From positions 1-29,820 of the IMG/VR virus record IMGVR_UViG_3300028762_000036: 29,820 nt of DNA; one strand, given 5' to 3'. Both the position numbers and the translations under genes were made by a program. This document shows positions 3,239 to 29,820 of the stretch, piece by piece. The DNA is from a virus. Numbering within the stretch: the first letter of the stretch is position 1; the number at the start of each line of letters is the position of its first letter. The notes beneath the pieces were generated by a model. The model searched no databases and was not told where the DNA came from. It saw only the letters and a program-made list of their open reading frames with translations.

Positions 3239-3795
3239 TGCGCGACTCCCCAAACAGACTGGACTGATCCGTAAAGGTCGATTCTCTGGCAAACCGCGTG
3301 CAGCCTCATCACGTCATCAAGCGCTCTGTGCTTCTGCTCATATTCGCCGACATAGTGGCGATACAATTCGATCAACTTCATGCGACGACCGAACTGTGGC
3401 GCGGTTTGCTCAACGGTGCAAAACTGCAGGCTTGGCCAGCTGACATCCTTCAGCGAAAAGCCGCGCCGCGCCAAGTCGTATTGCAGCATTGATTTGTCGA
3501 AGCTCAGGTTGTGCGCCACGGCTGCATCGGCCTTGGCGAAGTATTCCCGTAGCTGCGGCAAGAAGGTTGTGAAGTCCGGCTTATCTTCCAAATCCTGATT
3601 TGTCAATCCGGTTATTTTGGTGATAATCTCTTCTATGGCGATGCCTGGGTTGCAGATGAACTCGATTTGATCGATAATCTCTTTGCCATCGGTGATGATG
3701 CCGGCAAATTCAATAATGCGCGGTTGTTTCGATATGTCAGAGCGAAAGTGAAACGGCAGTCCTGTGGTTTCCGTGTCGTATACGGCAAATAGCAT
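3235..3795 (-). CDS. DnaQ-like 3'-5' exonuclease (epsilon-like, DEDDh)
   Basis: 186-aa proofreading-type exonuclease. Exo I is at the N-terminus (YDTETTG, D7/E9), Exo II is HNLSFD, and Exo III is HRALDDV, whose His makes it a DEDDh enzyme. Its stop codon overlaps the polymerase ATG (ATGA), so the two are translationally coupled, which fits one holoenzyme assembled from separate polymerase and proofreading subunits. There is no obvious clamp-binding tail. The 82-bp gap upstream carries a 7-bp hairpin but no clear promoter, so expression probably comes from the long thyX operon. Confidence 0.93.
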   Translation of the reverse strand: MLFAVYDTETTGLPFHFRSDISKQPRIIEFAGIITDGKEIIDQIEFICNPGIAIEEIITKITGLTNQDLEDKPDFTTFLPQLREYFAKADAAVAHNLSFDKSMLQYDLARRGFSLKDVSWPSLQFCTVEQTAPQFGRRMKLIELYRHYVGEYEQKHRALDDVMRLHAVCQRIDLYGSVQSVWGVAQ

Positions 3796-6693: not shown

Positions 6694-7244
6694 ATCGACC
6701 TCCCATTGTTGGCTGATGGCTTGTCATAGTCGCCGTGAACAGCTGCGCAATTTGAATTGCGCCAAGCTATAGCAGCAGCAAGCCCTTCATCGCTGTGTGG
6801 AAATGATTTGGCCTTCTTCTTTCCAGCGATGGAATATGAAGCAAGCCAACAAGCGTACTTCCCATTTGAATGTTGCTTTATTCCTTTGATTCCAGACTTG
6901 CTATTGCCCATTGCTGATCGATTCGCATTATTCTGCGATTGAGTGGCAGGCCGTAGATTGTCAATCTTAAAATCCCATTCATCACCATTCTTGTGGTCGA
7001 TAAACTCTGGAGGCTCTTCTTCATAGTGCATCTTCCAGACGACTCTGTGAACGCCGTAAGGCTTCTTGTCAAGCATGACGCTGATGTATCCGCGTTTACA
7101 TATTGAACCTGCTGGCGCACCGATGATAACTGCGTGGGCTTTTGGATGAGGCTTCGACTTCCAGATCAGGGTGCCGTCAATAGGATCATACTCAAACACC
7201 TCAAGAAGGCGTTCAAGTGGTGGAAGAATTCCGGTCTTAGCCAT
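6690..7244 (-). CDS. HNH homing endonuclease with AP2 DNA-binding domain
   Basis: 184 aa. An HNH_3-type domain occupies about residues 60-108: VHRVVW (H66), IDHKNGD (D83/H84), DNLRPA (N96) and a closing NNAN. An AP2-like domain follows at 117-172 (SGIKGIKQHSNGKYACW...). This is the standard architecture of free-standing phage homing endonucleases, which cut DNA and copy themselves by recombination. It is wedged in the operon directly behind thyX, overlapping its stop by 8 nt. I chose ATG 7244 (GGGAAG upstream) over ATG 7256. No intron is apparent: thyX looks intact. Confidence 0.93.
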   Translation of the reverse strand: MAKTGILPPLERLLEVFEYDPIDGTLIWKSKPHPKAHAVIIGAPAGSICKRGYISVMLDKKPYGVHRVVWKMHYEEEPPEFIDHKNGDEWDFKIDNLRPATQSQNNANRSAMGNSKSGIKGIKQHSNGKYACWLASYSIAGKKKAKSFPHSDEGLAAAIAWRNSNCAAVHGDYDKPSANNGRSM

Positions 7245-7992
7245 TGGACTTCCCATCAGTCGCGACAGGATTGTTTTTGATCAAGTCTGACGCCCAGAAT
7301 ATTTTGCGCAGTTCCTCTTTTTGGTTCTGCAAATCCATCCACGGGCGGTAGAATGAGCAATTTTCTTTTCCGTGACGAGGAAATGCGCATTGCCCTGTGG
7401 CAACGCAGGCCACTTGCAACATCGGATCGGCCCAAGGGTGCATCTGGATCACAAGCTCGCGCATGGCACGGAACACGCGCTGATATTCGCCTGCAGTTCT
7501 TGTGCAAAGGCGCGTTTTCGCCGTATCACTCAACGTCCGCAGGTTGAATTTGGCCTTGATTTTTGTTTCCATGTTGGACGGAAGGATTGCGCGGGCGTCT
7601 TGAAGCTGGACGCCTGCCGCGAGTAGCTGTTGATAGTGCGCGTCAGCATCGGCCACGCCGTCCCAGAACAACTGTGCTTGGGACTCGGTCAAGCCTTCTG
7701 GAGCGACCACTCCGTTACCAGTCATATCCAAGGCCCGACTGGTTTCCTGCTGGTATGAGCCTGTGCGAGTCCGCACAAATTGATGGGTGAAATTTTTGCT
7801 GACGCCTTCAATTTCAAAGATGTAGTCAACAAACTCGAATGGTGACCGGATTGTATCCAGCATGTAATTCCAGTGATCCCACTTTTCCTGCTCGGTCATC
7901 GTCGCCGGGTCTTGCCCGCGCATACGGGTGGACTTTGTCCCTATTAGGAGTTCCCAGGCGTTTGGTGTGCTGCTGATTAGTTTGACTTTCAT
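7237..7992 (-). CDS. thyX: flavin-dependent thymidylate synthase ThyX
   Basis: 251 aa. It methylates dUMP to dTMP using methylene-THF, FAD and NADPH, supplying thymidylate for phage replication. The core reads FTHQFVRTRTGSYQQETSR, where the usual RHR-x7-S signature is RTR (residues 74-76) and the Ser is one position late (S85). A downstream NLRTLSD segment and a C-terminal helix bundle fit the family and its length. Start ATG 7992 has AAAGGAA upstream, and a strong promoter lies at 8023-8051. It is the first gene of a long overlapping operon reaching the left edge of the window. Confidence 0.93.
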   Translation of the reverse strand: MKVKLISSTPNAWELLIGTKSTRMRGQDPATMTEQEKWDHWNYMLDTIRSPFEFVDYIFEIEGVSKNFTHQFVRTRTGSYQQETSRALDMTGNGVVAPEGLTESQAQLFWDGVADADAHYQQLLAAGVQLQDARAILPSNMETKIKAKFNLRTLSDTAKTRLCTRTAGEYQRVFRAMRELVIQMHPWADPMLQVACVATGQCAFPRHGKENCSFYRPWMDLQNQKEELRKIFWASDLIKNNPVATDGKSNG

Positions 7993-9513: not shown

Positions 9514-10458
9514 TTATCGACCAGCCAACGCTAGATCGCGGCCATAGGTGCTTGCCGCCATTAGCTTTTCGACCATAGCTATATCCTTTACGACATCGTC
9601 AAGCAGGATGTTGCGCCAAGTGGCAAAACGACCGATTGAGAATACATTGAAATCCCGCGTCAGTTCATACAAGATGGCTTCGCGCTGTGCACGCGGGACT
9701 TCTACGATCTTGCCGTACTTCTGATCAACCGCGCCCAAGTCTTCCAAGTCGGCATAATCGATGCCAAAGGCAGCAGTCACCATGTCAATCTCCAGGTCTG
9801 CCCCCATACCCCACGAAAATTCAAACAGAGGTGCGCCAGTCATCGACTCTACTATGAGCAAGTCTCCGGTGATGCTGGCGCGGAATGCCCTTAGAGACTC
9901 TTCAGGAAAATATATCGTTTGATATGCCTGCGTCCCTTTTGGCAAACGATACCGTGCAACACGAATCGGACTTTTGGCAAACTCGAATTTGAGCTCATCC
10001 ATGCCGCACGCCTTCATCATAACCGGCAAGGGAATTGTACTGATCAATTTATTATCGTTGCTCAGTGTGACGCGATTGACTGGCGTTGACCAATCAATCC
10101 GGTGCGCGTGGCGGTCGCAGAGTTGATCGTAGAAGTTTTCCGGTGCGATGTAGCGTTTGACGGTTTCTAAATCCCAAATTGATCTGCCGTGGATAGTACC
10201 GGAAACCTTGCGCGAATACATATTTGCCATGGCAATAGAACAGCGGTGGTGCGCCTCTCCGTGGAAGCTGATTTCCTTGTGCACGGTCACTTCTTGGAAC
10301 GGAATCCCGGTCAACTCAGCAACGGCCTTATCCCGAAATCGTAATAGTGCCTTGTGCTGTTCAACTCTTGGGCCTGCTTCGTATATGTGAGCGTCTTTTA
10401 TACGGCAGGCGGCGATCAGTCCGGCAAGTCCTGCGCCGATGATGTGTTTATCTATCAT
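9514..10458 (-). CDS. FAD-dependent oxidoreductase, UDP-galactopyranose mutase-like
   Basis: 314 aa. The start is an FAD-binding Rossmann motif (HIIGAGLAGLIAA, GAGLAG at residues 8-13) followed by IYEAG at the end of the second strand. A later STIPLPVMM segment is like those in UDP-galactopyranose mutase/amine-oxidase-type flavoproteins. The frame is open to 10896, but only through the repeat region of the upstream gene; ATG 10458 with AAGGTG upstream fits the Rossmann N-terminus. It lies directly behind a terminator (10486-10511). A sugar-nucleotide or other redox role is possible; the precise reaction is uncertain. Confidence 0.75.
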   Translation of the reverse strand: MIDKHIIGAGLAGLIAACRIKDAHIYEAGPRVEQHKALLRFRDKAVAELTGIPFQEVTVHKEISFHGEAHHRCSIAMANMYSRKVSGTIHGRSIWDLETVKRYIAPENFYDQLCDRHAHRIDWSTPVNRVTLSNDNKLISTIPLPVMMKACGMDELKFEFAKSPIRVARYRLPKGTQAYQTIYFPEESLRAFRASITGDLLIVESMTGAPLFEFSWGMGADLEIDMVTAAFGIDYADLEDLGAVDQKYGKIVEVPRAQREAILYELTRDFNVFSIGRFATWRNILLDDVVKDIAMVEKLMAASTYGRDLALAGR

Positions 10459-10485
10459 GTCACCTTCATTCTCAGTTATTCTGTA

Positions 10486-10511
10486 AAAAGCCCATACGAA
10501 TATGGGCTTTT
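10486..10511 (-). terminator. rho-independent terminator with UUCG loop
   Basis: Perfect 11-bp stem (10486-10496 / 10501-10511) closing a 4-nt loop that reads TTCG on the minus strand, followed by a T-run. It lies 26 bp after the stop of the repeat protein and ends about 28 bp before the oxidoreductase start. Confidence 0.9.
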
Positions 10512-10537
10512 CAATACAATTACAAAGCGTGCGTAGA

Positions 10538-10978
10538 TCAGGCGGTCGTTGCTGCTGTCCAGGCGGTCGTTGCTGCTGTCGTTGCTGCTGTCGTTGTCGA
10601 GTCGTCGCCGCCGCCTGTCGTTGCTGTCGTTGCTGTCGTTGCTGTCGTTGCTGTCGTTGCTGTCGTTGCTGTCGTTGCTGCCACGACAGGCGGCGACGAC
10701 TCGACAACGGTTCGTGCTTGGTTGACCAGTGCGATAAGTGTCGTTTGCACGGCGGCGCTGATGTTGTTTTCGGTGTTGATGATTGCCGCTTCGATGCTGT
10801 CCAGGATCGGCAAGGCGGGGTGCGCCGCGTTGTCGGCCTGCTCCTTTGCAAATTCGGCTTGATCGGTGGCAAGTACGCCTTCGGCGTCTTGTGCACTGGC
10901 TTCGGCAGCGTTCACGGCGTTTTGGGCAGACTTGACGGCAGCGACGTCAGCGTCAATTTGAGATTGTTGCAGTTCCAT
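10538..10978 (-). CDS. Ala-rich helical protein with Thr-Thr-Ala repeat tail
   Basis: 146 aa. Residues about 1-60 are an Ala/Gln/Asp-rich amphipathic helix (MELQQSQIDADVAAVKSAQN...), likely coiled-coil. A middle helix (ILDSIEAAIINTENNISAAV) and SSPPVVA lead into a tail of (TTA)-type triplets split by GGGDDS. Start ATG 10978 has AAGGAA upstream; the frame extends further but without a better site. The tail is encoded by a 9-bp tandem repeat flanked by a long inverted repeat. A strong terminator follows, so it is likely a separately and abundantly expressed protein. It could be structural or surface-exposed; no family recognised. Confidence 0.7.
   Translation of the reverse strand: MELQQSQIDADVAAVKSAQNAVNAAEASAQDAEGVLATDQAEFAKEQADNAAHPALPILDSIEAAIINTENNISAAVQTTLIALVNQARTVVESSPPVVAATTATTATTATTATTATTATTGGGDDSTTTAATTAATTAWTAATTA
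10539..10580. repeat. two perfect 21-bp tandem copies
   Basis: Units at 10539-10559 and 10560-10580 are identical; they encode the last residues of the Thr/Ala repeat protein. They share the GTTGCTGTC-like core of the neighbouring 9-bp repeat. Confidence 0.9.
10593..10708. repeat. 9-bp tandem repeat inside a 24-27 bp inverted repeat
   Basis: Six perfect copies of GTTGCTGTC (10620-10673) plus a partial seventh. Flanking arms at 10593-10619 and 10685-10708 are complementary apart from a 3-bp insertion in the left arm. The arms encode GGGDDS and ESSPP. The structure could form a long hairpin presenting the repeat in the loop. Confidence 0.9.
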
Positions 10979-11075: not shown

Positions 11076-12020
11076 TTACGCCGCCTTGTTGTCCGCCTTG
11101 CTGTCCGCCTTGTTGTCCGCCTTGCTGTCCGCCTTGCTGTCCGCCTTTTCACCTTCTTTCACTGCGGGCTTCGGTTCGTGGGTGACGAAGTCCAGGTGGC
11201 CCATCTCTTCCAACTTGCTCAAATACGAACGGATGTTCGTGCCGTACAGGATCGACTTACAAGCAGCCTGCAAGTGTTCAATGCTGACTTCCTTCCCATC
11301 GTGGTGGTGTTGCTTGATGTGTGCCAAAACCTTGCCGCGCACTGACAACTCTTGCGGGCTGCTGATGCCCGTTCCGGTGAAGCGGATGTGCGTCGCTTTT
11401 GCACGACGACCGTCAGCGGGCTTGTGAGCGGCTTTGCGGTCGGCAATTGCCTTGGCACGTGCTTCGGCTTCGGCTTTGCGTTTGGCCTTGACAGCGTCGG
11501 TGGCTTTCTTGGCTTCGTCGGCCTTGGCTTGCTTTTCGGTTTCGCGCTGCAGCTTGGCGGCAGCAGCGTCGGATTCTTTTTTGGCCTTGGCTTCGGCAGC
11601 TTCTTTTGCCTTCAGTTCGGCTTTGGCCTTGTTGGCTGCGTCGCGTTCGGCTTCTTTTGCCTTGGCGCCAGCGGCGCGTTGCTCTTCCGCCGCCTTCCGC
11701 TTGGCTTCGCGTTCGGCTTTGGTCTTCAACTTTTCCGCATTACGTTCCGCTTCCTTCTTGGCACTCTCGACTTCTTTCAACTTGTTGGCTTCTTCCCGCT
11801 TGGCATCTGCGGCCTTTTTGTCGGCAGCGCGCTTTTCTTCTGCTGCTTTCAATTCGGCTTCTTTGGCCTTTGCCTTTGCGGCCTTTTCGTCTGCGGCCTT
11901 TTCGTCTGCGGCCTTTTTGTCTGCGGCCTTTTTGTCTGCGACGATCTTCTTGTCAGCAACGGCCTTGTCGGCTGCTGCTTTTTCGGCCAACGTCTGTTGC
12001 TTGTGTGCGGGTGCGTTCAT
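11076..12020 (-). CDS. histone-H1-like Ala/Lys-rich protein with winged-helix-like domain
   Basis: 314 aa. Residues 1-200 are almost only Ala, Lys, Glu, Asp and Arg, with periodic KAAD/KAAE units that predict a very long charged helix (TolA-like in composition). Residues about 223-281 (VRGKVLAHIKQHHHDGKEVSIEHLQAACK... YLSKLEEMGHLDFV) look like a winged helix-turn-helix. The tail is KADS/KADN repeated five times. A winged helix with Lys/Ala-rich arms resembles H1-like nucleoid proteins, so DNA compaction or silencing is a reasonable inference; a structural role is an alternative. Start ATG 12020 has GGAGA, and a good promoter lies at 12080-12108. Confidence 0.75.
   Translation of the reverse strand: MNAPAHKQQTLAEKAAADKAVADKKIVADKKAADKKAADEKAADEKAAKAKAKEAELKAAEEKRAADKKAADAKREEANKLKEVESAKKEAERNAEKLKTKAEREAKRKAAEEQRAAGAKAKEAERDAANKAKAELKAKEAAEAKAKKESDAAAAKLQRETEKQAKADEAKKATDAVKAKRKAEAEARAKAIADRKAAHKPADGRRAKATHIRFTGTGISSPQELSVRGKVLAHIKQHHHDGKEVSIEHLQAACKSILYGTNIRSYLSKLEEMGHLDFVTHEPKPAVKEGEKADSKADSKADNKADSKADNKAA
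11082..11141. repeat. five 12-bp tandem units in the 3' end of the H1-like gene
   Basis: Unit CGCCTTGYTGTC, five copies in which only one position varies. They encode the KAD(S/N) tail on the minus strand. Confidence 0.85.
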
Positions 12021-19864: not shown

Positions 19865-20221
19865 CTACTCTTCATCCACCAAGCCACGCAAGCTGACGTC
19901 AAATCCTGTTCCGGGCGATATGTGCGCCGTTGCCACTCCAAAACGGACTCCCGCAGCTTGGCGTTTTTTTGTTTGCAACTGATCGCGCTCTTCAGTGAGA
20001 GTGGCCGTCTGATCGACCAGCAACAGGACGGCACTGAATAACAAACAGACACCAAAGCCTATGACACAGTTGAGTCTGGATCGCCGTCTACTTGCCTTTG
20101 CCAAGCGTTCCGCACATTGCCGTTTGGCAGTTTCCTCTCTCAATTCAGCGGCTGCGGGAACGCAAATTGGGCACCCTGGCGTGCGATGAGTTCGGCAGGC
20201 CATCAAAAGTGTCGGCGTCAT
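19865..20221 (-). CDS. single-pass membrane protein with cytoplasmic Cys cluster
   Basis: 118 aa. N-terminal Cys/His cluster (CRTHRTPGCPIC), a basic segment KASRRRSR, then one transmembrane helix (CVIGFGVCLLFSAVLLLV, about residues 52-69), then a short coiled-coil-like stretch (TLTEERDQLQTKKRQ). The positive-inside rule places the N-terminus in the cytoplasm and the C-terminus in the periplasm. Start ATG 20221 overlaps the preceding gene's stop (ATGA). It might be a superinfection-exclusion or spanin-like protein; a lipoprotein is encoded two genes upstream. Neither is proved. Confidence 0.7.
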   Translation of the reverse strand: MTPTLLMACRTHRTPGCPICVPAAAELREETAKRQCAERLAKASRRRSRLNCVIGFGVCLLFSAVLLLVDQTATLTEERDQLQTKKRQAAGVRFGVATAHISPGTGFDVSLRGLVDEE

Positions 20222-20526
20222 CTCGAAATCCCTTCGCAATTAGCGACAAAGGCCCGCATCTTGGCTTCGTACCCGATCATCCGAGGTTGATGCATTTTAG
20301 TCACAGGCAAGTTGCCTTCTGCCGGTGCGAAGTTGAGCAATCGGTGACCTTTTGCGCGGGAGTTTGACGGCCATTCAACAAGCCCATCCGCTTCCATACG
20401 CCGAAGTTCGGCGACGACGTGATTGCGGTTGGCATATGTCGTGTGGCAGATGATTTTCAGCGCTAGCACCGGCGACTTGTGCTTGCTGAATGCCGCGATG
20501 ATCTGGGTTCTGAGGACTCTGCTCAT
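20218..20526 (-). CDS. winged-helix DNA-binding protein
   Basis: 102 aa. MSRVLRTQIIAAFSKHKSPVLALKII, then NRNHVVAELRRMEADGLVEW and a wing-like KGHRLLNF form a winged helix-turn-helix of the MarR/phage-replication-regulator sort. ATG 20526 has GGAG 6 nt upstream; ATG 20538 is too close to that site. Probably a transcription regulator of this small-gene operon or of early genes. Confidence 0.75.
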   Translation of the reverse strand: MSRVLRTQIIAAFSKHKSPVLALKIICHTTYANRNHVVAELRRMEADGLVEWPSNSRAKGHRLLNFAPAEGNLPVTKMHQPRMIGYEAKMRAFVANCEGISR

Positions 20527-20580
20527 TCCATGCTCCAACTTTGTTTGTGGTGGTTAAATTGTACTCTCAGAACCGTGGAC

Positions 20581-20832
20581 TCATTCTCGGAATTCTTTGA
20601 ACTTGCAAATCACGTCATACTCATATTCTACTCTAGCAACAGTGGCGTGCTTGATGCAGTTGTTCGAGTACGGATCGTCAACAGCGGTGCACTGTGACGC
20701 GACGTAGCTTCTTGCCACGCCGGTTCTTGTCGATGAGCACGACGATGAAGGCACGTCGCGCCTGGAATCGTGATGGCAAGCAGATAAGCAGACTAATGCT
20801 ATGACTAAGGCAATCTGTGCTTGTCGCGGCAT
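20581..20832 (-). CDS. small lipoprotein
   Basis: 83 aa. Signal peptide MPRQAQIALVIALVCLSAC with lipobox LSAC (C19 the lipidated residue) and a polar mature part of about 65 aa containing four further Cys, which could form disulfides in the periplasm. The start lies within the zinc-finger gene's 3' end. Candidates are an outer-membrane spanin subunit or a lipoprotein conferring superinfection immunity; Pro is scarce in the mature part, unlike typical Rz1. Confidence 0.75.
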   Translation of the reverse strand: MPRQAQIALVIALVCLSACHHDSRRDVPSSSCSSTRTGVARSYVASQCTAVDDPYSNNCIKHATVARVEYEYDVICKFKEFRE

Positions 20833-21047
20833 GGCGGGCAAATCCCTTCAAAAATGTTCGCGGCAACCCCGTAGAAGCGTTTGCGCTTGAAATAGTCAGC
20901 GCCCATCAGCCTTGGGCTTTCGTCGCCGCACATATCGCACGTTCCGGCGTGTCCAGGCGCGATCCGGCTTGCCTCTAGGCGGGCTGCTGCCAAGGCCATC
21001 CTGTCCAACGCATCTTGACGTTCTGTTGCTGCGTCGATGTCATCCAT
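20805..21047 (-). CDS. DksA/TraR-type zinc-finger protein
   Basis: 80 aa. N-terminal helix (MDDIDAATERQDALDRMALAAARLEASR) followed by CDMCG (C37, C40) and CPPC (about residues 70-73), the C4 zinc arrangement of TraR/DksA proteins that bind RNA polymerase through its secondary channel. The gap between Cys pairs (29 residues) is longer than in typical TraR. Start overlaps the preceding stop by 8 nt (ATGGATGA). Confidence 0.82.
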   Translation of the reverse strand: MDDIDAATERQDALDRMALAAARLEASRIAPGHAGTCDMCGDESPRLMGADYFKRKRFYGVAANIFEGICPPCRDKHRLP

Positions 21048-21417
21048 TTACGACAAGTCCTTGTGGTTCGGTTTCAATTGAGATGGTTCCGATCTGCTGA
21101 TCGGCCATCGCCAGTGCGCGACGAAAATCAAGCGTCAGGCCTGCCGCGATCTTTCTATCCTCTTCGTTGATCAGCGTGCCTGAAGCTTCAAGCACCTTAA
21201 GGCATAAGTCCAGATGTTGAAAGTCGGCTGAAAATTGGATTTGTTCTGAGCCAGCTTGATGCGCAGCCTTGCACCAGGCAAGGATAAACCCACCTTGCAG
21301 ACTTGCAGATTTGCAAGTCCGGTCATAGTGTCGGTACGACAAAACACTAAGAATTTCAGCCTGTTTCAAACTTAGTGGAATCCAGAAAACCGGCTTGGCA
21401 ATTATTGTGATATTCAT
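21040..21417 (-). CDS. hypothetical 125-aa protein
   Basis: ATG 21417 with GGAG 6-9 nt upstream. Helical, no motif recognised: SLKQAEILSVLSYRHYDRTC, GGFILAWCKAAHQAG and EEDRKIAAGLTLDFRRALAM. Its 3' end overlaps the zinc-finger gene by 8 nt. Confidence 0.72.
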   Translation of the reverse strand: MNITIIAKPVFWIPLSLKQAEILSVLSYRHYDRTCKSASLQGGFILAWCKAAHQAGSEQIQFSADFQHLDLCLKVLEASGTLINEEDRKIAAGLTLDFRRALAMADQQIGTISIETEPQGLVVNG

Positions 21418-21426
21418 CTTAAACTC

Positions 21427-21696
21427 CTAGTTTAGACTATAAGCCATCGGCGCGATGATCTCACGAATGCGCGCCAGATAGGCTTCGTTGAATTCGTCGG
21501 TTGACGAGAATTGACGCGGCAACCGCTCCAGCTTTACAACTAAGTGGTCACAGGTGATATGGGAGAATATAAGATCATCCTCCAAATCTCCCATATCGGC
21601 GACGGAATATGCTTGGATAAAGTCTTCAAGCATCTCTGGGCGCAACCGAATTTCAGGCAAATACACGACGATGTTTAATGTGTCTGCTGTGTCCAT
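21427..21696 (-). CDS. hypothetical 89-aa acidic protein
   Basis: ATG 21696 lies within the 59-aa gene's 3' end. Acidic, beta then alpha (NIVVYLPEIRLRPEMLEDF, then DEFNEAYLARIREIIAP). The longer upstream frame crosses the neighbour and lacks a ribosome site. Function unknown. Confidence 0.65.
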   Translation of the reverse strand: MDTADTLNIVVYLPEIRLRPEMLEDFIQAYSVADMGDLEDDLIFSHITCDHLVVKLERLPRQFSSTDEFNEAYLARIREIIAPMAYSLN

Positions 21697-21854
21697 GGTT
21701 CGTAATGTTCGTTGATGAGACGCCTTGCAACTTCCGAGTTGTCCAACCACTCTTGATAATCCCAAATCATAGGCAGCTTTCTGTCATTGGCTTGCTTGAA
21801 ATATCTCGCAAACGCCTCTTCAAGCAGCGCTTCCAGCTTCGGCGCATCGGTCAC
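21675..21854 (-). CDS. hypothetical 59-aa protein
   Basis: GTG 21854 with GAGGAG 5 nt upstream, immediately behind the 21877-21901 terminator. Helical and aromatic: LEALLEEAFARYFKQAN, IWDYQEWLDNSEVARRL. Function unknown. Confidence 0.65.
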   Translation of the reverse strand: MTDAPKLEALLEEAFARYFKQANDRKLPMIWDYQEWLDNSEVARRLINEHYEPWTQQTH

Positions 21855-21876
21855 GTTCACTCCTCAGTCGGAAATA

Positions 21877-21901
21877 AAGGTGCGACGTTTAATCGCACCT
21901 T
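21877..21901 (-). terminator. rho-independent terminator after the 278-aa gene
   Basis: 9-bp perfect stem (21877-21885 / 21893-21901), 7-nt loop, followed on the minus strand by TTTATTT. The next gene's Shine-Dalgarno begins within about 15 nt, as at 10486-10511. Confidence 0.85.
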
Positions 21902-21909
21902 CAGAGTTA

Positions 21910-22746
21910 TTAGATGATTTTGAACAAGTAGCTTACGCCGTTTTCTTCGTACACGGCAGACTTTGCAGCCTTCAGTACGCCACGGAAGCGGATGTGCTTG
22001 CTGTCAAGCAGGCGATAGTGACGGAATGCGTCACGAGCGGACTTGTGAGTTGTCGTCTTGTCGTTCACCGTCACACTTACGCCGTCGCGGGTCAACCGGG
22101 CGGCAGCGACATCAGCCTGCCCCCACGAAGCCGCTACGCCAGCAGCGTTGGACGCATGGCTGATCGCCTTCTTAGGCTTGACCGCTGCCACGCCGTAACC
22201 AGCAGGCAGCGCTTTGTAGGCGTCAAACCCGGCCTGCGTAAGCGACACGCAAGAGTCTTCCCCGGCAGCGCCGTTTCCAACCACCAAGCCAGCAGCTTCC
22301 ATCGCTTCAAACGTCCGTTGCTCTGCCGCAGTTTCGAGCGTTGTGCATGTCCATACCGGGCCGACTTCTTCAAGCGCTTTCGGTTCCGTGCCGTTCACTG
22401 TGGTAAAGTCGCCCAACGCGATCCTGCGCAGAATAGCGGCTTGGGCTTTTGTGACGGTAGGCTTATCGGCCTTCTTTGGCGCTGGTTTTCCGGCGGCGAT
22501 GGCCAGCTTGCTTTCGACGGAGCCGAACGTCATTTGGAAAGGCCACACAAACTTCTTTTCGCCTTCGACTTCTGCCGATTCTTCCTCCACTTCCGAATCA
22601 GAGATGATCAGAGCCGAACAGCGCTTGATGGCGGTTTGGCGGTCGGCGAACTTCTTGACTGGCTTTTCGGTGTTGATCGAGTTGTAGAATACGATCAGGT
22701 CTTTGGTTTCGGCGGATTCGATTTGAGCGACGGTGGTGAAGGTCAT
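21910..22746 (-). CDS. DNA-binding-like protein with ADRQ-type N-terminal motif
   Basis: 278 aa. The N-terminus (ETKDLIVFYNSI... KPVKKFADRQTAIKRC) matches a motif shared by phage and bacterial proteins that often carry DUF3489-type helix-turn-helix domains. A Lys/Pro linker follows, then a winged-helix-like region (ILRRIALGDFTTVNG... AAGLVVGN) and a second Ala-rich module with a basic HKSARDAFRHYRLLDSKHIR end. Strong promoter (22805-22833) and terminator bracket it, so it is probably abundant: a nucleoid-type or regulatory protein is plausible. Confidence 0.72.
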   Translation of the reverse strand: MTFTTVAQIESAETKDLIVFYNSINTEKPVKKFADRQTAIKRCSALIISDSEVEEESAEVEGEKKFVWPFQMTFGSVESKLAIAAGKPAPKKADKPTVTKAQAAILRRIALGDFTTVNGTEPKALEEVGPVWTCTTLETAAEQRTFEAMEAAGLVVGNGAAGEDSCVSLTQAGFDAYKALPAGYGVAAVKPKKAISHASNAAGVAASWGQADVAAARLTRDGVSVTVNDKTTTHKSARDAFRHYRLLDSKHIRFRGVLKAAKSAVYEENGVSYLFKII

Positions 22747-22804
22747 GATAAATTCTCTTTCTTTCTAGGGTTTTCGGTTTCCGTTATCGGCCACCAATGA
22801 ATCA

Positions 22805-22833
22805 ATTATGAACCTGTATTTTCTGCGAGTCAA
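22805..22833 (-). promoter_or_regulatory. sigma-70 promoter for the 278-aa gene and downstream operon
   Basis: TTGACT-N17-CATAAT on the minus strand (-35 at 22828-22833, -10 at 22805-22810), the same hexamers as the thyX promoter. Confidence 0.78.
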
Positions 22834-22899
22834 CAACTTTTTCATTTATTTTTGAAAATAATTGAATGATTTCGTAAGTGATTGATTAATAATGACGAT

Positions 22900-22928
22900 T
22901 TGCCTCAATGACTGGGCGCGGCTATAAT
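22900..22928 (+). promoter_or_regulatory. sigma-70 promoter for the large terminase
   Basis: TTGCCT-N17-TATAAT (-35 at 22900-22905, -10 at 22923-22928), 32 nt before the terminase ATG. Confidence 0.8.
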
Positions 22929-22960
22929 CGCACCACGAATAACCGCTAAAACAATCACAC

Positions 22961-24337
22961 ATGTACTCTCTGAATCCAGCATTACGCCCGTTTTGGGAGG
23001 CCAAGGCCCGATACAAAGCGCTGTTCGGCGGGCGCGCAAGCTCCAAGAGTCACGACGCTGCAGGGTTCGCAGTATTCCTGGCGGCGAACTTCAAGGTGCG
23101 AATAATGTGCGCCCGGCAATTTCAGAATCGCATCGATGAGTCTGTGTACACTCTCATCAAGGATAAGATATCAAACAGCGAATATGCGGGCGAATTCGGC
23201 ATAACCAACAAATCGATCATCCACAAGATAACGGGAAGTGAGTTCTTATTCTACGGTATTGCCCGTAATCTCAATGAAATAAAATCGATGGAGCATATTG
23301 ACATCCTCTGGTTGGAGGAGGCCAACTATTTGACAGAAGCGCAATGGGAGGTTATCGCGCCGACAATCCTACGCAACCAAGGGGCGCAAATATGGCTGAT
23401 ATGGAACCCGGATGAGTACATGGATTTTGCGTATCAGAATTTCGTCGTAAACCCGCCGAACAGCTGCATATCGCGCCAGATAAACTACACAGAAAACCCG
23501 TTCCTGACGTCTGACATGGTCGAGGTAATAGCGGAGGCTTACGTGCGGGATAAAAAGAGCGCTGAACACATTTATGGTGGCGTGCCTAAGATGGGAGGCG
23601 ACCGTAGCGTGATCAGCCTGTCGTATATTCTCGCAGCAATCGACGCGCACATTAAACTCGGCTGGGAGCCTGTTGGCAAAAAGCAGATTGGATTCGACGT
23701 GGCAGATGATGGCGACGATAAGTGCGCTACAGTATCGGCCTATGGCAACGTGATCGTGGACGGCGATGAGTGGGAAGGCCTGGAGGATGAGTTATTGAAG
23801 TCGTGCAATCGCGTGTACAACAAGGCTCTTGAATCGGGCGCGGCCATTGTGTGGGATTCGATTGGCGTTGGCGCGACGGCAGGTGCGAAGTTTGCCGAAT
23901 TAAATGAGGCCAAAGGGTTTAGTGTAGAATACGACGCTTTCAATGCAGGCGGTGAGATTGACGACAAGGACGGCATCTATATGAAGTTGCCGCACGTCGT
24001 CATCAGGAATAAGGATCACTTCAGCAATTTGAAGGCGCAAAAATGGGATGAGGTTGCATCTCGGTTCCGAAAGACGTATGAAGTCGTTGAACAGGGCGCA
24101 ACCCACCCGCACGATGAGTTGATTAGCCTGAACAGCGCCACGATACCGCCAAAGATTTTGGAGAAAATGAAGGTGGAGCTAGCGCAACCGCGTAAAGATA
24201 CAGATGGCAACGGGCGGTTCAAAGTTGAGTCGAAAATTGACATGAAAAAGCGCCATATCAATTCGCCAAATATTGCTGACGCTTTTATCATGGCACTTAT
24301 CAAACCAAAACGCAGCGCTGCAGGATTCTTTGACTGA
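22961..24337 (+). CDS. terL: terminase large subunit
   Basis: 458 aa, Terminase_3/PBSX type. Walker A-like GGRASSKS at residues 23-30, Walker B DILWLEEA near 114-121, and a C-terminal RNase H-like nuclease with acidic residues in GFDVADDGDD (about 245), IVWDSIG (about 297) and ADAFIM (about 440). It pumps DNA into the prohead and cuts concatemers. Start MYSLNPALRPFW is typical of the family, but no Shine-Dalgarno precedes it. Its stop abuts the stop of a convergent minus-strand gene (24338). Confidence 0.95.
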   Translation: MYSLNPALRPFWEAKARYKALFGGRASSKSHDAAGFAVFLAANFKVRIMCARQFQNRIDESVYTLIKDKISNSEYAGEFGITNKSIIHKITGSEFLFYGIARNLNEIKSMEHIDILWLEEANYLTEAQWEVIAPTILRNQGAQIWLIWNPDEYMDFAYQNFVVNPPNSCISRQINYTENPFLTSDMVEVIAEAYVRDKKSAEHIYGGVPKMGGDRSVISLSYILAAIDAHIKLGWEPVGKKQIGFDVADDGDDKCATVSAYGNVIVDGDEWEGLEDELLKSCNRVYNKALESGAAIVWDSIGVGATAGAKFAELNEAKGFSVEYDAFNAGGEIDDKDGIYMKLPHVVIRNKDHFSNLKAQKWDEVASRFRKTYEVVEQGATHPHDELISLNSATIPPKILEKMKVELAQPRKDTDGNGRFKVESKIDMKKRHINSPNIADAFIMALIKPKRSAAGFFD

Positions 24338-24463
24338 TTACTTCTCAGTCTTTTCCTTGTTGCGCAACTGACGCTTTGCCTCTTCAAGCTGTTCCCTAAG
24401 TTGGCGCGGCGTCGGGCGCTTCTTTTGGTCACACTTCGATGCGGGAGTATCGACAAACTTCAT
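24338..24463 (-). CDS. small basic helical protein (41 aa)
   Basis: ATG 24463 overlaps the upstream gene's stop (ATGA). Sequence is Lys/Arg/Glu-rich with one predicted helix (RQLREQLEEAKRQLRNKEK). The stop lies directly against the terminase stop. Coupling is the main support. Confidence 0.55.
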   Translation of the reverse strand: MKFVDTPASKCDQKKRPTPRQLREQLEEAKRQLRNKEKTEK

Positions 24464-24618
24464 GCCGGCCTCTTCAATTCTTCATTCATTTCACGTAAGC
24501 AGTGACGATCAAGCTTGCGGTGGAATGCCGCAATGGCGCAGTTGTCGTAACGTCGCCTTGTCTCTTTCTTGCCTGCGAAATAAGTGCGAAATTTGTTTTG
24601 CTTTTCGATTTTACTCAC
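24460..24618 (-). CDS. small basic protein (52 aa)
   Basis: GTG 24618 with GGAG 8 nt upstream (inside the DUF2786 gene's end) and an ATGA overlap downstream. Highly basic: NKFRTYFAGKKETRRRYD and FHRKLDRHCLREMNEE. Likely nucleic-acid-binding; unknown. Confidence 0.6.
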   Translation of the reverse strand: MSKIEKQNKFRTYFAGKKETRRRYDNCAIAAFHRKLDRHCLREMNEELKRPA

Positions 24619-24620
24619 GA

Positions 24621-25346
24621 TCAATTCTCCACTGACTTCACAATTTCGATTGTCGCGCCTTTAATAGCGCCGATGCGTCGGGCTTCGCCTTCCGCATCGT
24701 CTTGTGCAGATCGAAGTTTGACATTGCCATACTTGCAATTGCCAAACTTTTCGTCAACGGCGACCTTCTTGATAACCACCAGCGATGTTCCGTTGGCTGA
24801 CGTTATTGCGTCGCGCTCAACGGTCATTTCACGAAGCCTAGTGCCTATGGATTGGAAAGCGCCGATTTTGAACTGCCAGCCGATTCGCACGGAGTAGGCA
24901 GTCATCCCTATTCCGTTCATATACTCTTTGCAAAGCCGGTTGACAGCTTCGTTGAGTCTGTTGAACATTTGTATGGCCAACTCGACATCCGACTTGTAGC
25001 CCATGAACATTATACGCTTTCCGCGCTGCAGCAGGTCGGTTGCTTTCTTTTTATAGGTGACATCGCCAAATTCAAAACGCGATTGGCAGTCGTTATACTC
25101 TGCTACTTGGACGGCAAAAATGTTCATATATTGCGGAACTGCCGCGTAAAATCGCGTTGCCGGCCCCGTTGCAAAATCCTCCTCAATCCGGTTGCCGATG
25201 TCGAATTCATCAAGCTGATGCTTGTCCATGAGGTTGCGCGCACGCTCTGCAGCAATCGCAGCTTCGTTCGGGCTGGAGGCGTCTGCGGCCATACGCAAAA
25301 GCTTGGCGATGCGGTCTTTGATCTTGTCAAGGTCTTGGAAGTCCAT
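24621..25346 (-). CDS. DUF2786 domain protein
   Basis: 241 aa. The N-terminal IKDRIAKLLRMAADASSPNE followed by AAIAAERARNLMDKHQLDE is the DUF2786 signature. The rest contains KRIMFMGYKSDVELAIQMF, typical of the C-terminal domain seen in these proteins. Function unknown; DUF2786 proteins are common in phages. Second gene after the promoter at 25641-25669. Confidence 0.88.
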   Translation of the reverse strand: MDFQDLDKIKDRIAKLLRMAADASSPNEAAIAAERARNLMDKHQLDEFDIGNRIEEDFATGPATRFYAAVPQYMNIFAVQVAEYNDCQSRFEFGDVTYKKKATDLLQRGKRIMFMGYKSDVELAIQMFNRLNEAVNRLCKEYMNGIGMTAYSVRIGWQFKIGAFQSIGTRLREMTVERDAITSANGTSLVVIKKVAVDEKFGNCKYGNVKLRSAQDDAEGEARRIGAIKGATIEIVKSVEN

Positions 25347-25363
25347 TCTGTGCTTTCTGGTTG

Positions 25364-25603
25364 TTAGTTGAGTTTTTTAATCTTGAATTCAAGCTGATGA
25401 TCGACTGAGCGCCAAACAAACACGCCTGATACGTGTCCAAACCCTTCTTTCACGCTACTCGATTCTGCGAGAACGAACATCTGGCTGCGACTCCTGGCTA
25501 CGTCACCTGCCAACTTTTCGATAGACCTTCTGGCGGCGTTCCATTTCGAGCGGGTATCAACCAACTCGCCATTCAACGTAATCTCAAAAATTTCGCGCTT
25601 CAT
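25364..25603 (-). CDS. hypothetical 79-aa protein
   Basis: First gene of the 25.6-24.3 kb minus-strand operon. Beta-rich ends (REIFEITLNGELVDTRSKW and SGVFVWRSVDHQLEFKIKK) around a helix. Unknown. Promoter 38 nt upstream; the start has only a weak GAAAG. Confidence 0.68.
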   Translation of the reverse strand: MKREIFEITLNGELVDTRSKWNAARRSIEKLAGDVARSRSQMFVLAESSSVKEGFGHVSGVFVWRSVDHQLEFKIKKLN

Positions 25604-25640
25604 TCTAGGCTTTCTGTTGGGTGTTGGTTGCCATGAAAGA

Positions 25641-25669
25641 ATTATGCCTGAAATTTTGATCGAAGTAAA
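25641..25669 (-). promoter_or_regulatory. sigma-70 promoter for the DUF2786 operon
   Basis: TTTACT-N17-CATAAT on the minus strand (-35 at 25664-25669, -10 at 25641-25646), with CAGGCATAATTC as in the H1-like gene's promoter. Confidence 0.65.
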
Positions 25670-25732
25670 CTAATTCATAAATATTTTTTCTGATACAAAT
25701 TTGCACAATGAAATCAACACGTTATCCTTTCA

Positions 25733-25762
25733 TTGCCTAGTGATGGCCTGGCACCCTATAAT
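25733..25762 (+). promoter_or_regulatory. sigma-70 promoter for the portal operon
   Basis: TTGCCT-N18-TATAAT (-35 at 25733-25738, -10 at 25757-25762), 29 nt before the portal ATG. Confidence 0.72.
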
Positions 25763-25791
25763 ACGCCGGATAAACACCTGGAAGGGCGCAA

Positions 25792-28149
25792 ATGAAGCGA
25801 TTTCTGGCCAAGTTATTTGGCAAAAAGGACCAAAGCGTCGATGTACAAAAGGCGGCTTTAGCGGCTGCCATGAAAGATCGAAACGATGACCCGCTCGATG
25901 TGACGGCAAGAAGTAAAGGTTGGCGTACAGACGCGCCAAACCCGATCAAGGCCACCATTGACGACTTCCCGATCTATCAACCGCGCCAGTCCGCAACATT
26001 TGACTCTGCTGGAGTTATGGTGATGGACGCGGAAGACGCGCCGGTGATGTCGAAGTTGAATAGCCAATACGCGGTGCCAGACCAACTTCAAAACTGGTTC
26101 ATGTCGCAAAGTTTCATTGGCTATCAGGCTTGCTCAATCATCGCTCAACACTGGCTGGTTGACAAAGCCTGCTCCATGCCTGCTGAAGACGCGATCAGAA
26201 ATGGTTGGGAAATCAAGGCACTTGGTGAAGATAAAGCGTTGAGCAAGAACGACCTTGACGCACTACGGTCACGTGACGTTCCATTCAAAATCAAGCAAAA
26301 CTTGGTAGAGCTAGTTCGGTTCAAAAACATATTCGGCATCCGAATTGCCATGTTCAAAGTAGACAGCGACGATCCGCTGTACTATGAGAAACCATTCAAC
26401 ATCGACGGCGTTACGCCAAACTCATATAGAGGCATTAGCCAGATTGATCCATACTGGATGACTCCAATGATGACTGCTGAATCAGTAGCAGACCCATCTG
26501 GCATTCACTTCTATGACCCTGAATATTGGGTCATCAGCGGCAAGAAGTATCACAGATCGCATCTGATTATAGCCAGAGGCCCGCAGCCTGCTGACGTTCT
26601 GAAGCCAACGTATGTGTTTGGCGGCATACCTTTAACCCAGCGCATCTATGAGCGCGTCTACGCCGCAGAACGCACTGCTAACGAAGCGCCGCTGCTTTCT
26701 TTGAGTAAGCGAACGACCGCACTTCATGTTGACGTGGACAAAGCCCTTGCAAACCAGAGCAAGTTTGAAGAAAAGCTGATGTTCTGGGTGAAGTATCGAG
26801 ACAATCACGCGGTGAAAGTGTTGGGCAAAGATGAGACGATGGAGCAGTTCGATACCAGTCTATCGGACTTCGATTCTGTCATTATGAATCAGTTCCAATT
26901 GGTTGCCGCAATTGCAAAAGTTCCTGCGACAAAGCTGCTTGGCACGTCACCGAAGGGCTTCAATGCCACTGGCGAGTTTGAGACCATATCGTATCATGAA
27001 GAGTTGGAATCAATTCAGGAACACGATATGGCACCGATGATCGAACGCCACTATTTGATTCTAGGTCGTTCGCTTGGCATAACCACCAAGCTGACAGTTG
27101 TGTTTGAGCCTGTGGACTCGGTATCTGCGACGCAACAGGCCGATCTGAACGACAAGAAGGCGGATACACGCCAGAAGTATATCAACATGGGTGCGACATC
27201 AGCGGATGAGGTGCGTGACGTTCTCCGTGATGACAAAAATTCCGGCTTCAATCGCCTGTCCAGTGAAGAGGCAAACGAAGCGCCTGGGATGTCGCCAGAG
27301 AATCTTGCCAACTTCCAAAAGGCAGGCGCGGCGGAAGAAAAGGCCGGTGCTGCAGAGACTACGGCGACTGAAAAAGGTGGCCAGCAGCCTGCAGCAAAGC
27401 CGCCAGAAGACGACGCACCGAGCGCCCATGTAGGAGTGTCCGATCCAAGCCAACCGGAACCGCCTAAGCCTTCTAAGCCATCGGCACAGGAGCCACCAGA
27501 CAACGCAGCAATGTCAAGCCTTGTCAACAGCCTTTTCGAGCGCTTGACGGCGCTTGAGCAGCACTTGGTACCAGAAGGGCAAGATATCCAATACGATACA
27601 GCACCAGCGACTAACCGGACATCAAAGCCAAGTGTGACAGGACTGGCAGGGTCTGTGGCCGGTGCGATCTTGTCGCAGACCGATCCGACGAAGCATCCAA
27701 AAATGAAACTTGGCGGACTTTTACTTGGCATTGAAAATCCGCGTGGCACTATTCGGCAAGGCATGGATTTGGACGGAAACAATTGGTCGTCAAAAATGCC
27801 GCATCACTATGGATATATAAAAGGTGTTGCCGGTGCCGATGGTGATGAGTTGGACTGCTTTGTCGGGCCAAACCTGAAGTCTGATCAGGTATTCGTCATC
27901 AATCAAAACGATCCTAAGACTGGCGAATTTGACGAACACAAATGCATGCTTGGGTTTGACGCGCCGGAAGACGCCAAAGCCGCATATCAATCGTCGTATC
28001 AAGACGGCTGGCAGGGCTTTGGGGATATGATCCCGATGTCTATGGCCGACTTCAAGGCCTGGGTGAGTGATCCGAATGGGTGTACAATGCAGCTTCAAGC
28101 CGGTTCGGGTTCTGGTAACGAAGTGTTGGCGAAAGAGACTGGCAAATAA
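25792..28149 (+). CDS. portal protein (DUF1073) fused to inorganic-pyrophosphatase-like domain
   Basis: 785 aa; typical DUF1073 portals are about 450-500 aa. The first ~500 residues are portal-like (LQNWFMSQSFIGYQACSIIAQHWLVDKACSMPAEDAIRNGW..., SHLIIARG, VPATKLLGTSPKGFNATGE). A Pro/Ala/Glu-rich linker spans about 505-605. Residues about 635-755 (LLLGIENPRGTIRQGMDLDGNNW, HHYGYIKG, DGDELDCFVGP, EFDEHKCMLGF, YQSSYQDGWQGFG) match the InPase domain known from phage polyvalent proteins. Start ATG 25792 has GGAAGGG. The portal forms the DNA entry ring; the InPase part may hydrolyse pyrophosphate or a related compound. Some databases name DUF1073 after anti-CBASS Acb1; I see no HxT/S pair supporting that. 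Confidence 0.85.
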   Translation: MKRFLAKLFGKKDQSVDVQKAALAAAMKDRNDDPLDVTARSKGWRTDAPNPIKATIDDFPIYQPRQSATFDSAGVMVMDAEDAPVMSKLNSQYAVPDQLQNWFMSQSFIGYQACSIIAQHWLVDKACSMPAEDAIRNGWEIKALGEDKALSKNDLDALRSRDVPFKIKQNLVELVRFKNIFGIRIAMFKVDSDDPLYYEKPFNIDGVTPNSYRGISQIDPYWMTPMMTAESVADPSGIHFYDPEYWVISGKKYHRSHLIIARGPQPADVLKPTYVFGGIPLTQRIYERVYAAERTANEAPLLSLSKRTTALHVDVDKALANQSKFEEKLMFWVKYRDNHAVKVLGKDETMEQFDTSLSDFDSVIMNQFQLVAAIAKVPATKLLGTSPKGFNATGEFETISYHEELESIQEHDMAPMIERHYLILGRSLGITTKLTVVFEPVDSVSATQQADLNDKKADTRQKYINMGATSADEVRDVLRDDKNSGFNRLSSEEANEAPGMSPENLANFQKAGAAEEKAGAAETTATEKGGQQPAAKPPEDDAPSAHVGVSDPSQPEPPKPSKPSAQEPPDNAAMSSLVNSLFERLTALEQHLVPEGQDIQYDTAPATNRTSKPSVTGLAGSVAGAILSQTDPTKHPKMKLGGLLLGIENPRGTIRQGMDLDGNNWSSKMPHHYGYIKGVAGADGDELDCFVGPNLKSDQVFVINQNDPKTGEFDEHKCMLGFDAPEDAKAAYQSSYQDGWQGFGDMIPMSMADFKAWVSDPNGCTMQLQAGSGSGNEVLAKETGK

Positions 28150-28151
28150 CC

Positions 28152-28991
28152 GTGGCATTCAAAGCCTCCAAGAAGCGTGAAAAGAAGGCTCCAGAGCCGG
28201 TAGGCAAAGGCACGCCCCTCATTCCATCTGCTGCGATCCGGTCATGGTATCAGCAGCAGATGGATTCAATCATCGCGGCAATGGTGCGCGATTACAAAGA
28301 GCAAATAACAAAAGCACTTAATCACAAAGGCGTGAAGGAATTCTTTTCAACAGACGCTGCTGCCAATTCCGTCCTGAAACAGACGATGCAAAGTCTGAAC
28401 CAGAAATGGGATGACATATTCAAAGGTTTTGCGAAATCCACTTCTAAAAAATTTGTTGACGACTCTGATGTGCACGCGAAAGCGACCGTTCAATTCAGCC
28501 TGAGTACGGCAGGAGTGGAACAGCCGACTGTCGCCTATAACGAAGCCATTGCCAACACGTTAAATGCTGCGCAAGACTTCAACCACACGTTGATCACCGG
28601 CATTCACGCTGACGTTCATGAGAAGATTTACAACGCGGTGATGCTATCTCTTACGTCGCCAAACCCGGAAGAGCAAGGGCAGTCCGGCATTGAAGCCGCC
28701 CTCAAAGAGGCTGGCGGATTCGCTAAAAATCGTGCCAATCTTATTGCGCGTGACCAGACCAGCAAGCTATACAGCGCGTTGAGTGATGAGCGCATGGAGC
28801 AGAACGGCATTGACGAATTCGAGTGGATGCACTCATCAGCAGGGAAAGTTCCGCGCCAAACGCACATCGATAAAGACGGAAAGATTTTTAAGTTGAACGA
28901 TCCGCGTCTGTGGGAAGGCCCAAAGGCAGACCAGGGGCCGCCAGGATGGGCTATTCGCTGTCGCTGTAGGAAGCGTCCAATTATAAGATGA
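28152..28991 (+). CDS. phage head morphogenesis protein (Mu F / SPP1 gp7-like)
   Basis: 279 aa. The conserved C-terminal part is clear: ARDQTSKLYSALSDERM, FEWMHSSAGKVPRQTH, DGKIFKLNDP and finally GWAIRCRCRKRPI, where the Cys-Arg-Cys ending is diagnostic. It is a minor capsid protein that enters the prohead with the portal. GTG 28152 lies 2 bp after the portal stop. A basic N-terminus (KASKKREKK) precedes a helical region. Confidence 0.9.
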   Translation: MAFKASKKREKKAPEPVGKGTPLIPSAAIRSWYQQQMDSIIAAMVRDYKEQITKALNHKGVKEFFSTDAAANSVLKQTMQSLNQKWDDIFKGFAKSTSKKFVDDSDVHAKATVQFSLSTAGVEQPTVAYNEAIANTLNAAQDFNHTLITGIHADVHEKIYNAVMLSLTSPNPEEQGQSGIEAALKEAGGFAKNRANLIARDQTSKLYSALSDERMEQNGIDEFEWMHSSAGKVPRQTHIDKDGKIFKLNDPRLWEGPKADQGPPGWAIRCRCRKRPIIR

Positions 28992-29012
28992 TTTTGAGCT
29001 GAAAAGTCTGAT

Positions 29013-29041
29013 TTAACTCAAAAGATGGAGTATCATATAAC
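29013..29041 (+). promoter_or_regulatory. promoter for the GGS-linker protein gene
   Basis: TTAACT-N17-TATAAC (-35 at 29013-29018, -10 at 29036-29041), 37 nt before the ATG, which has AAGAGG upstream. Confidence 0.6.
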
Positions 29042-29078
29042 TAGATCGATTTGATCTTAACTTTTAAGAGGTATTGAA

Positions 29079-29519
29079 ATGGCAACTACAAAATTGGCTG
29101 GCGTTCGCGCCCTTGATGCTCTGAAGTTAACAATTGCGACGATTGACGCAGTTAAACACGACCCTAAGAACGGCCAGTTCACCGGCGGTTCTGGCGGTTC
29201 TGGCGGTTCTGGCGGTTCTGGCGGTTCTGGCGGTTCTGGCGGTTCTGGCGGTTCTGGCATACCAGCCAGACCCTCTGGCAAACGCGGCGACCCTATCGAG
29301 CCTGACAACCCCGCATATGCAGGCATGCCCCATGGCGGCACCGTCGGCCACATCGCAGCGAGAGCCGCATCAACAAAAGGTAAAGAGCAAGCGGCGTGGA
29401 AGGTAGCTCAAGAGGCGTCAAAGGCGTATGTAAAATCACCGACTAAGGAAAACCTACATGCAATGATAGAAGCTATGCCAGGACAGAGCGATTTCAAAAG
29501 AAAGCGCAAGACCAGCTAA
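29079..29519 (+). CDS. small protein with (GGS)8 linker
   Basis: 146 aa. N-terminal 30 residues (MATTKLAGVRALDALKLTIA) end in HDPKNGQFTGG, a segment common at linkers in phage head-associated proteins. Residues 36-59 are eight exact Gly-Gly-Ser repeats. Then a Pro/Gly part (NPAYAGMPHGGTVGH) and a basic helical C-terminus ending KRKRKTS. It follows the head genes with its own promoter and RBS, so it may be a head-associated or DNA-binding protein. No family recognised. Confidence 0.75.
   Translation: MATTKLAGVRALDALKLTIATIDAVKHDPKNGQFTGGSGGSGGSGGSGGSGGSGGSGGSGIPARPSGKRGDPIEPDNPAYAGMPHGGTVGHIAARAASTKGKEQAAWKVAQEASKAYVKSPTKENLHAMIEAMPGQSDFKRKRKTS
29184..29255 (+). repeat. eight perfect 9-bp repeats encoding GGS
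   Basis: GGCGGTTCT x8 without a single substitution, encoding the flexible linker of the 146-aa protein. Perfect identity at the DNA level suggests recent expansion by slippage. Confidence 0.97.
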
Positions 29520-29521
29520 CC

Positions 29522-29540
29522 GTCCGCTATCCTTGCGGAC
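29522..29540 (+). terminator. short hairpin behind the GGS-linker gene
   Basis: GTCCGC/GCGGAC with a 7-nt loop, 2 bp after the stop codon; followed by TTCCC only, so it would be a weak terminator. Confidence 0.35.
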
Positions 29541-29770
29541 TTCCCGAACTTGCGGCTTGTAATTTTACAGCCGCAAGTCTATTTCCCGATTGTAATCAAT
29601 AGCTTATCACTGAAATTGCGGAATTGCGGATTCTCCTGCAACTTTCAACCATATAGGTACGTATAAATCGTATATCTTTTAAATCTATAATATATCCGCA
29701 AGTTCGCAATTTAGACATACACTCTGAAATAAAAACAACAACTTAGGACTTGCGGTTATTCAACTTGCGG
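29532..29770. repeat. ACTTGCGG motif array 2
   Basis: About nine motif copies: CTTGCGG at 29532-29538, GAACTTGCGG at 29546-29555, its complement-type CCGCAAGT at 29571-29578, tandem AATTGCGG at 29614-29629, CCGCAAGTTC at 29696-29705, GGACTTGCGG at 29746-29755 and AACTTGCGG at 29762-29770. ACTTGCGGCT and its complement (29548-29578) form a 10-bp hairpin. The box at 29697-29719 matches array 1 at 22 of 23 positions, and an IHF-consensus match lies at 29594-29606. Confidence 0.88.
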
Positions 29771-29820
29771 CAATAACTAGGCAAAGAAAACGCAATCACG
29801 ATGACCAGGGTGACGGACAC

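Follow-up and report, generated by a model that had tools for sequence, protein, structure and literature searches.

InPase domains of polyvalent proteins were described by Iyer et al. 2017, who noted versions fused to a portal, with BcepF1.124 as an example, and proposed that the domain is injected and clears PPi or processes infection-induced nucleotides. The polyvalent-type InPase reportedly lacks the beta-hairpin of classical pyrophosphatases (PPases), and long polyvalent proteins are considered to be ejected together with the DNA (PMC5512222). Since the BcepF1 fusion and these same proposals were published in 2017, neither the portal–InPase fusion, which is common in the PB1-like group, nor the idea of its delivery is new. 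Our literature search turned up no experiments testing a phage InPase, and only Iyer et al. on a portal–pyrophosphatase fusion. The present analysis adds the count of one InPase per fusion-bearing contig, the lack of InPase in 16 contigs with related unextended portals, the occurrence of the fusion on two very distant portal lineages, and a case in which the two domains are split into adjacent genes.

The portals of phages E217 and Pa193 (both 765 aa) have been solved by cryo-EM as dodecamers whose C-terminal barrel points into the head. The Pa193 gp19 model spans residues 94–528, density for residues 529–765 not being discernible (PMC11042391), and in the E217 portal, too, no residues were modelled beyond 528. 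The E217 barrel is ordered only when the head is filled with DNA. The word pyrophosphatase is absent from the main text of both structure papers.

The portal–InPase gene and its neighbourhood

The window, by which we mean the whole stretch of 29,820 bases analysed here (an IMG/VR virus fragment), contains a single InPase match, and this lies within the portal gene of a PB1-like myophage, which loads and releases its DNA through the portal ring. The relevant features are as follows.

22961 to 24337, plus strand: terminase large subunit, upstream, in the head-packaging module (PF04466, E 3.4e-31)
24621 to 25346, minus strand: phrog_421 gene of unknown function, between the terminase and portal genes
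25792 to 28149, plus strand: portal–InPase gene, ATG start, stop at 28149, 785 aa
26122 to 27174, plus strand: portal domain PF06381 (DUF1073), residues 111–461, from Pfam and the solved homologs 8fvh, 9b41 and 8hds
27364 to 27690, plus strand: variable Pro/Ala-rich linker with a short helix and an RTSKPSV-like motif, residues 525–633, from the conservation profile
27691 to 28065, plus strand: InPase domain PF18823, residues 634–758, from Pfam, AlphaFold2 and PDB matches
27838 to 27855, plus strand: metal-site motif D683-x-D685-x-x-D688, from conservation in 36 relatives and hhalign to E. coli Ppa
27931 to 27942, plus strand: D714-E715-H716-K717 motif, from conservation in 36 relatives
28152 to 28991, plus strand: SPP1 gp7/Mu F-like minor head protein, 279 aa, directly downstream (PF04233, E 1.1e-11; phrog_324 head morphogenesis, E 8.4e-80)

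The initial annotation had described this gene as a DUF1073 portal fused to an InPase domain, and both the coordinates and the domains proved right in the ORF call and in Pfam. Residues 111–461 match PF06381 (Phage_portal_3, the DUF1073 family) with E 1.1e-88 and 297.8 bits against a cut-off of 33.8, over profile positions 1–356 of 357, and residues 634–758 match PF18823 with E 1.1e-49 and 168.2 bits against a cut-off of 26.8, over positions 10–134 of 135; both matches are far beyond chance. The three motifs named in that annotation are present as YGYIKG (673–678), DGDELDCFVGP (683–693) and EFDEHKCMLGF (712–722). PHROG 4660 resembles the protein over its full length (residues 5–764, E 0), and its name, 'minor head protein', omits the enzyme domain. 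PDB homologs of the portal domain are 8fvh (E217 gp19), 9b41 (Pa193 gp19) and 8hds (Pam3 portal), and the 765-aa chain of Pa193 gp19 matches residues 6–763, InPase region included.

BcepF1.124 (YP_001039808.1, Burkholderia phage BcepF1) shares both domains and their order, at 53.6% identity over 97% of the length, and the annotated BcepF1 record shows the same head operon as here. It differs by ordinary divergence and is somewhat longer, with 52 residues after the InPase match. Identity to the Pbunavirus group, which includes E217 gp19 and Pa193 gp19 (8fvh, 9b41), is about 53%. PF18823 also includes the InPase domains found in polyvalent proteins, DarB-like ones among them; they are about 40–50% identical and have the same conserved residues, but their parent proteins range from several hundred to about 4000 aa in length.

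Contigs from other IMG/VR samples (L002, L003 and L004) encode the same protein at 99–100% identity, and hundreds of phage records show this domain arrangement, which rules out a chimeric assembly as the source of the fusion. A megablast search with positions 20000–29820 found no near DNA relative among annotated phage genomes; the phage is therefore new at the DNA level, and the protein family is not.

Some further features of the window were noted. A small ORF after the MuF gene (29079–29519) contains a perfect 9-base array, GGCGGTTCT, repeated 8.3 times at 29184–29258 and coding for a Gly-Gly-Ser run; its protein starts MATTKLAGVRAL...KHDPKNGQF, and its PHROG matches are weak and via the repeat. 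Short in-frame tandem repeats (9, 12, 15 and 21 bases) also occur at 10539–10680, 11081–11147 and 11865–11940, inside neighbouring minus-strand ORFs (9514–10896 and 11076–12020), neither with a Pfam match. A replication module on the minus strand includes a ThyX-type thymidylate synthase and a DNA polymerase III alpha-like polymerase (7237–7992 and 419–3292).

Fold, active site and linker of the InPase domain

An AlphaFold2 model of residues 601–785, built with 31 relatives, has a mean pLDDT of 85.8, with values of about 90–98 across the InPase domain. In a Foldseek comparison with the PDB, soluble inorganic pyrophosphatases head the matches (best E 7.9e-4, for the Mycobacterium tuberculosis PPase), and nearly all of the best 50 structure matches listed are titled pyrophosphatase, in agreement with the sequence motifs. 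VIA-align gave a Z of up to 7.4 with soluble PPases (rmsd 3.5 A over 112 residues), a value of a size that can generally reflect a common arrangement. By the leading matches of both programs the predicted model has the pyrophosphatase OB-type fold; a structure unlike pyrophosphatases, which would have spoken against the initial annotation, was not predicted.

Among 36 diverse InPase domains there is no variation at E648, R655, Y673, G674, G684, D688, G692, E715 or K717, and only D or E occurs at D683, D685 and D714. The acidic metal-binding residues, whose loss would have spoken against the annotation, are thus kept, D683, D685, D688, D714 and E715 being acidic in 36 of 36 domains and E648 invariant. 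Profile comparison by hhalign aligned the domain with E. coli Ppa (family I soluble PPase, PF00719), for which the predicted fold is alike, over the YGYI...DGDxxD block, making D683, D685 and D688 equivalent to D65, D67 and D70 of the E. coli enzyme. From its spacing, the D714-E715-H716-K717 motif is the probable counterpart of the D102/K104 region. No conserved acid equivalent to D97 of E. coli PPase was found at 707 or 712 in the aligned fusions, and D714 may take its place.

The domain departs from classical family I enzymes in two respects. Its PF00719 score is 13 bits, below the cut-off of 23.5, and the E20- and Y55-type positions (E648 and Y673) are 25 residues apart, compared with 35 in E. 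coli Ppa, a difference of 10 residues that is consistent with hairpin loss. The hairpin bearing R43 and E31 of classical PPases is apparently missing, and given this and the low PF00719 score, PPi is perhaps not the substrate. The domain is pyrophosphatase-like and, since it retains the acidic and basic residues to be expected of a catalyst, most likely an active enzyme.

Conservation along the protein, measured as the mean top-residue fraction in 24 aligned PB1-like fusions, is mostly about 0.6–0.9 in the portal core, falls to about 0.23–0.25 at residues 521–580, rises to 0.41–0.46 at residues 581–640 and reaches 0.6–0.75 in the InPase core. The profile is in keeping with two functional domains and an unconstrained linker between them, and 'low-complexity linker' in the initial annotation is a fair description of the poorly conserved inter-domain stretch. 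Ahead of the InPase domain there is a short, better conserved helix-like segment (about 573–600) and the RTSKPSV-like motif. The catalytic-type residues are invariant or acid-conserved and the linker drifts, pointing to selection on the active site and not on mere bulk. No strictly conserved stretch that might represent a protease site precedes the InPase domain in the 24 aligned fusions; an R-[ST]-x-x-P motif is loosely kept there and does not constitute evidence of cleavage.

Distribution and evolution of the fusion

A tblastn search with the portal–InPase protein matched 1116 phage records, at least 346 of them with 80% or more of the query at one place, and the InPase part as sole query matched 471 records. 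The best matches to the whole protein are from phages of Xanthomonas, Pseudomonas (Pbunavirus), Burkholderia and relatives, at 53–57% identity over more than 90% of the length. Sorting of 213 sequences (loci plus the window) into non-identical proteins yielded 39 portal–InPase proteins, 63 portals whose ORF has no InPase, and 47 InPase proteins that lack a portal, mostly long polyvalent proteins. Five portal–InPase proteins (L085, L054, L055, L056 and L059) carry an extra 269–626 aa past the InPase domain, and the additional C-terminal part of L055 has a weak GNAT-like match.

Each of 17 fusion-bearing contigs (62–72 kb) has exactly one InPase, inside the portal ORF. A second InPase as a backup in the fusion phages can accordingly be set aside for these records, which are perhaps incomplete. 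None of 16 contigs (36–47 kb) with related unextended portals has an InPase anywhere, in a search in which controls gave no match; in the separate search of the fusion contigs the same query matched all 17.

In the portal tree, the fusion occurs in a supported clade of 27 that includes the window and in a second, very distant group, as would be expected of portable cargo. Supported branches of this tree require at least two changes of state; retrieval of both sets by similarity biases the sampling, and long branches meet near the root. The main polyvalent set forms a separate supported group of 41 in the InPase tree. In a divergent DUF1073 phage (L023), the portal stop overlaps the ATG of a stand-alone InPase gene (ATGA, L023:5944–5947), and another contig (L020) has a separate InPase within the head module. 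As the InPase of L023 is a separate gene, the portal tether is usual but neither universal nor essential in every phage.

Virion location and possible roles

The approximately 237 C-terminal residues of the E217 and Pa193 portals that lack density or a model correspond to the linker onward in the present protein. By analogy with these homologs, the InPase domain presumably hangs by a flexible tether beyond the barrel and within the head, and the dodecameric homologs likewise support the initial annotation of the protein as a virion component probably present in twelve copies. The function suggested in that annotation, a virion-delivered enzyme, restates the proposal of Iyer et al. and is borne out in part. 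Mass spectrometry of purified SCUT-S1 particles detected a minor head protein of 84.5 kDa by 44 peptides at 59% coverage (PMC6521218); from its name and mass, we infer that this protein, ORF20, is a homolog of the portal–InPase protein. A portal of 88.7 kDa was likewise found by mass spectrometry in vB_Eco4M-7 particles (PMC7048862). We considered and rejected the SCUT-S1 coverage as proof of InPase in virions, since it is only a little above the share that cryo-EM resolves (432 of 765 residues, 56%) and unresolved N-terminal residues could account for the excess. The SCUT-S1 data come from whole-lane digests, which are incapable of showing cleavage.

For the phage studied here, we infer a scheme in which each of the (probably) twelve portal subunits would carry an InPase on a flexible tether that starts past the barrel helix, inside the head. 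The domain would be a small metal-dependent phosphoanhydride hydrolase of the PF18823 family carried in the virion, would be cut from or otherwise freed of the portal, and would then enter the cell with the DNA, where early in infection it would hydrolyse PPi or a phosphoanhydride-containing nucleotide. Taken as a whole, we regard this reading as somewhat probable. The homologous portals and the conserved active site make a good case for an enzyme that is borne by the virion and potentially active; delivery into the cell, considered as a step by itself, is a tentative proposition that we rate a little short of an even prospect. The other large InPase set consists of long polyvalent proteins, DarB-like ones included. 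A candidate protease for release exists, since a DUF2213 gene of the BcepF1 operon bears the annotation 'head maturation protease' and another contig (L005) has a member of the DUF2213 family downstream; the part of the operon where this gene is expected lies beyond the end of the window. Against delivery, a covalently attached InPase would have to be cut off to avoid remaining with the empty head outside the cell, and we found neither a site nor a product of such cleavage.

The chief rival to delivery is late action in the producing cell, where portal–InPase expressed from the late operon would clear PPi or another phosphoanhydride during DNA synthesis and packaging, its presence in the virion being incidental. 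The location of the gene in the packaging and head module agrees with such a role, and the stand-alone InPase genes of L023, with its ATGA overlap, and of the L020 head module fit a cytoplasmic function. The hosts, however, have abundant PPase of their own, and a bulk PPase would be badly placed on a portal, an assembly protein of low copy number; we consider late action unlikely. Still less likely is that the InPase stays tethered and serves a structural or regulatory role in the head or portal vertex, such as binding DNA, metal or scaffold in assembly, with catalysis secondary. Covalent attachment in 17 of 17 fusion-bearing contigs speaks for such a role, and the ordering of the E217 barrel only in DNA-filled heads indicates that the inner portal face is functionally responsive. 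Nevertheless, the most conserved residues are of the catalytic type, whereas a purely structural role should keep surfaces, and the related portals of the 16 contigs without InPase show that assembly is independent of it.

That the domain is a relic or degenerate copy without function is highly improbable; the weak, sub-threshold match to classical PPases (PF00719) could be read in this way, but the active-site residues are invariant or acid-conserved across divergent phages and the InPase is retained in the fusion clade. A more specific version of the delivery reading, in which the InPase would be cut from the twelve subunits and pass down the tail with the DNA to destroy an antiphage-defence nucleotide signal or an alarmone, is in our view a long shot. 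If true, the portal itself would be the carrier of a counter-defence enzyme.

PB1-like phages such as E217 and Pa193 are studied for therapy, and their portals carry an apparently active InPase domain that is absent from the cryo-EM maps. The substrate of this InPase, and whether it leaves the portal, bear on the wider matter of enzyme carriage into cells by portals.
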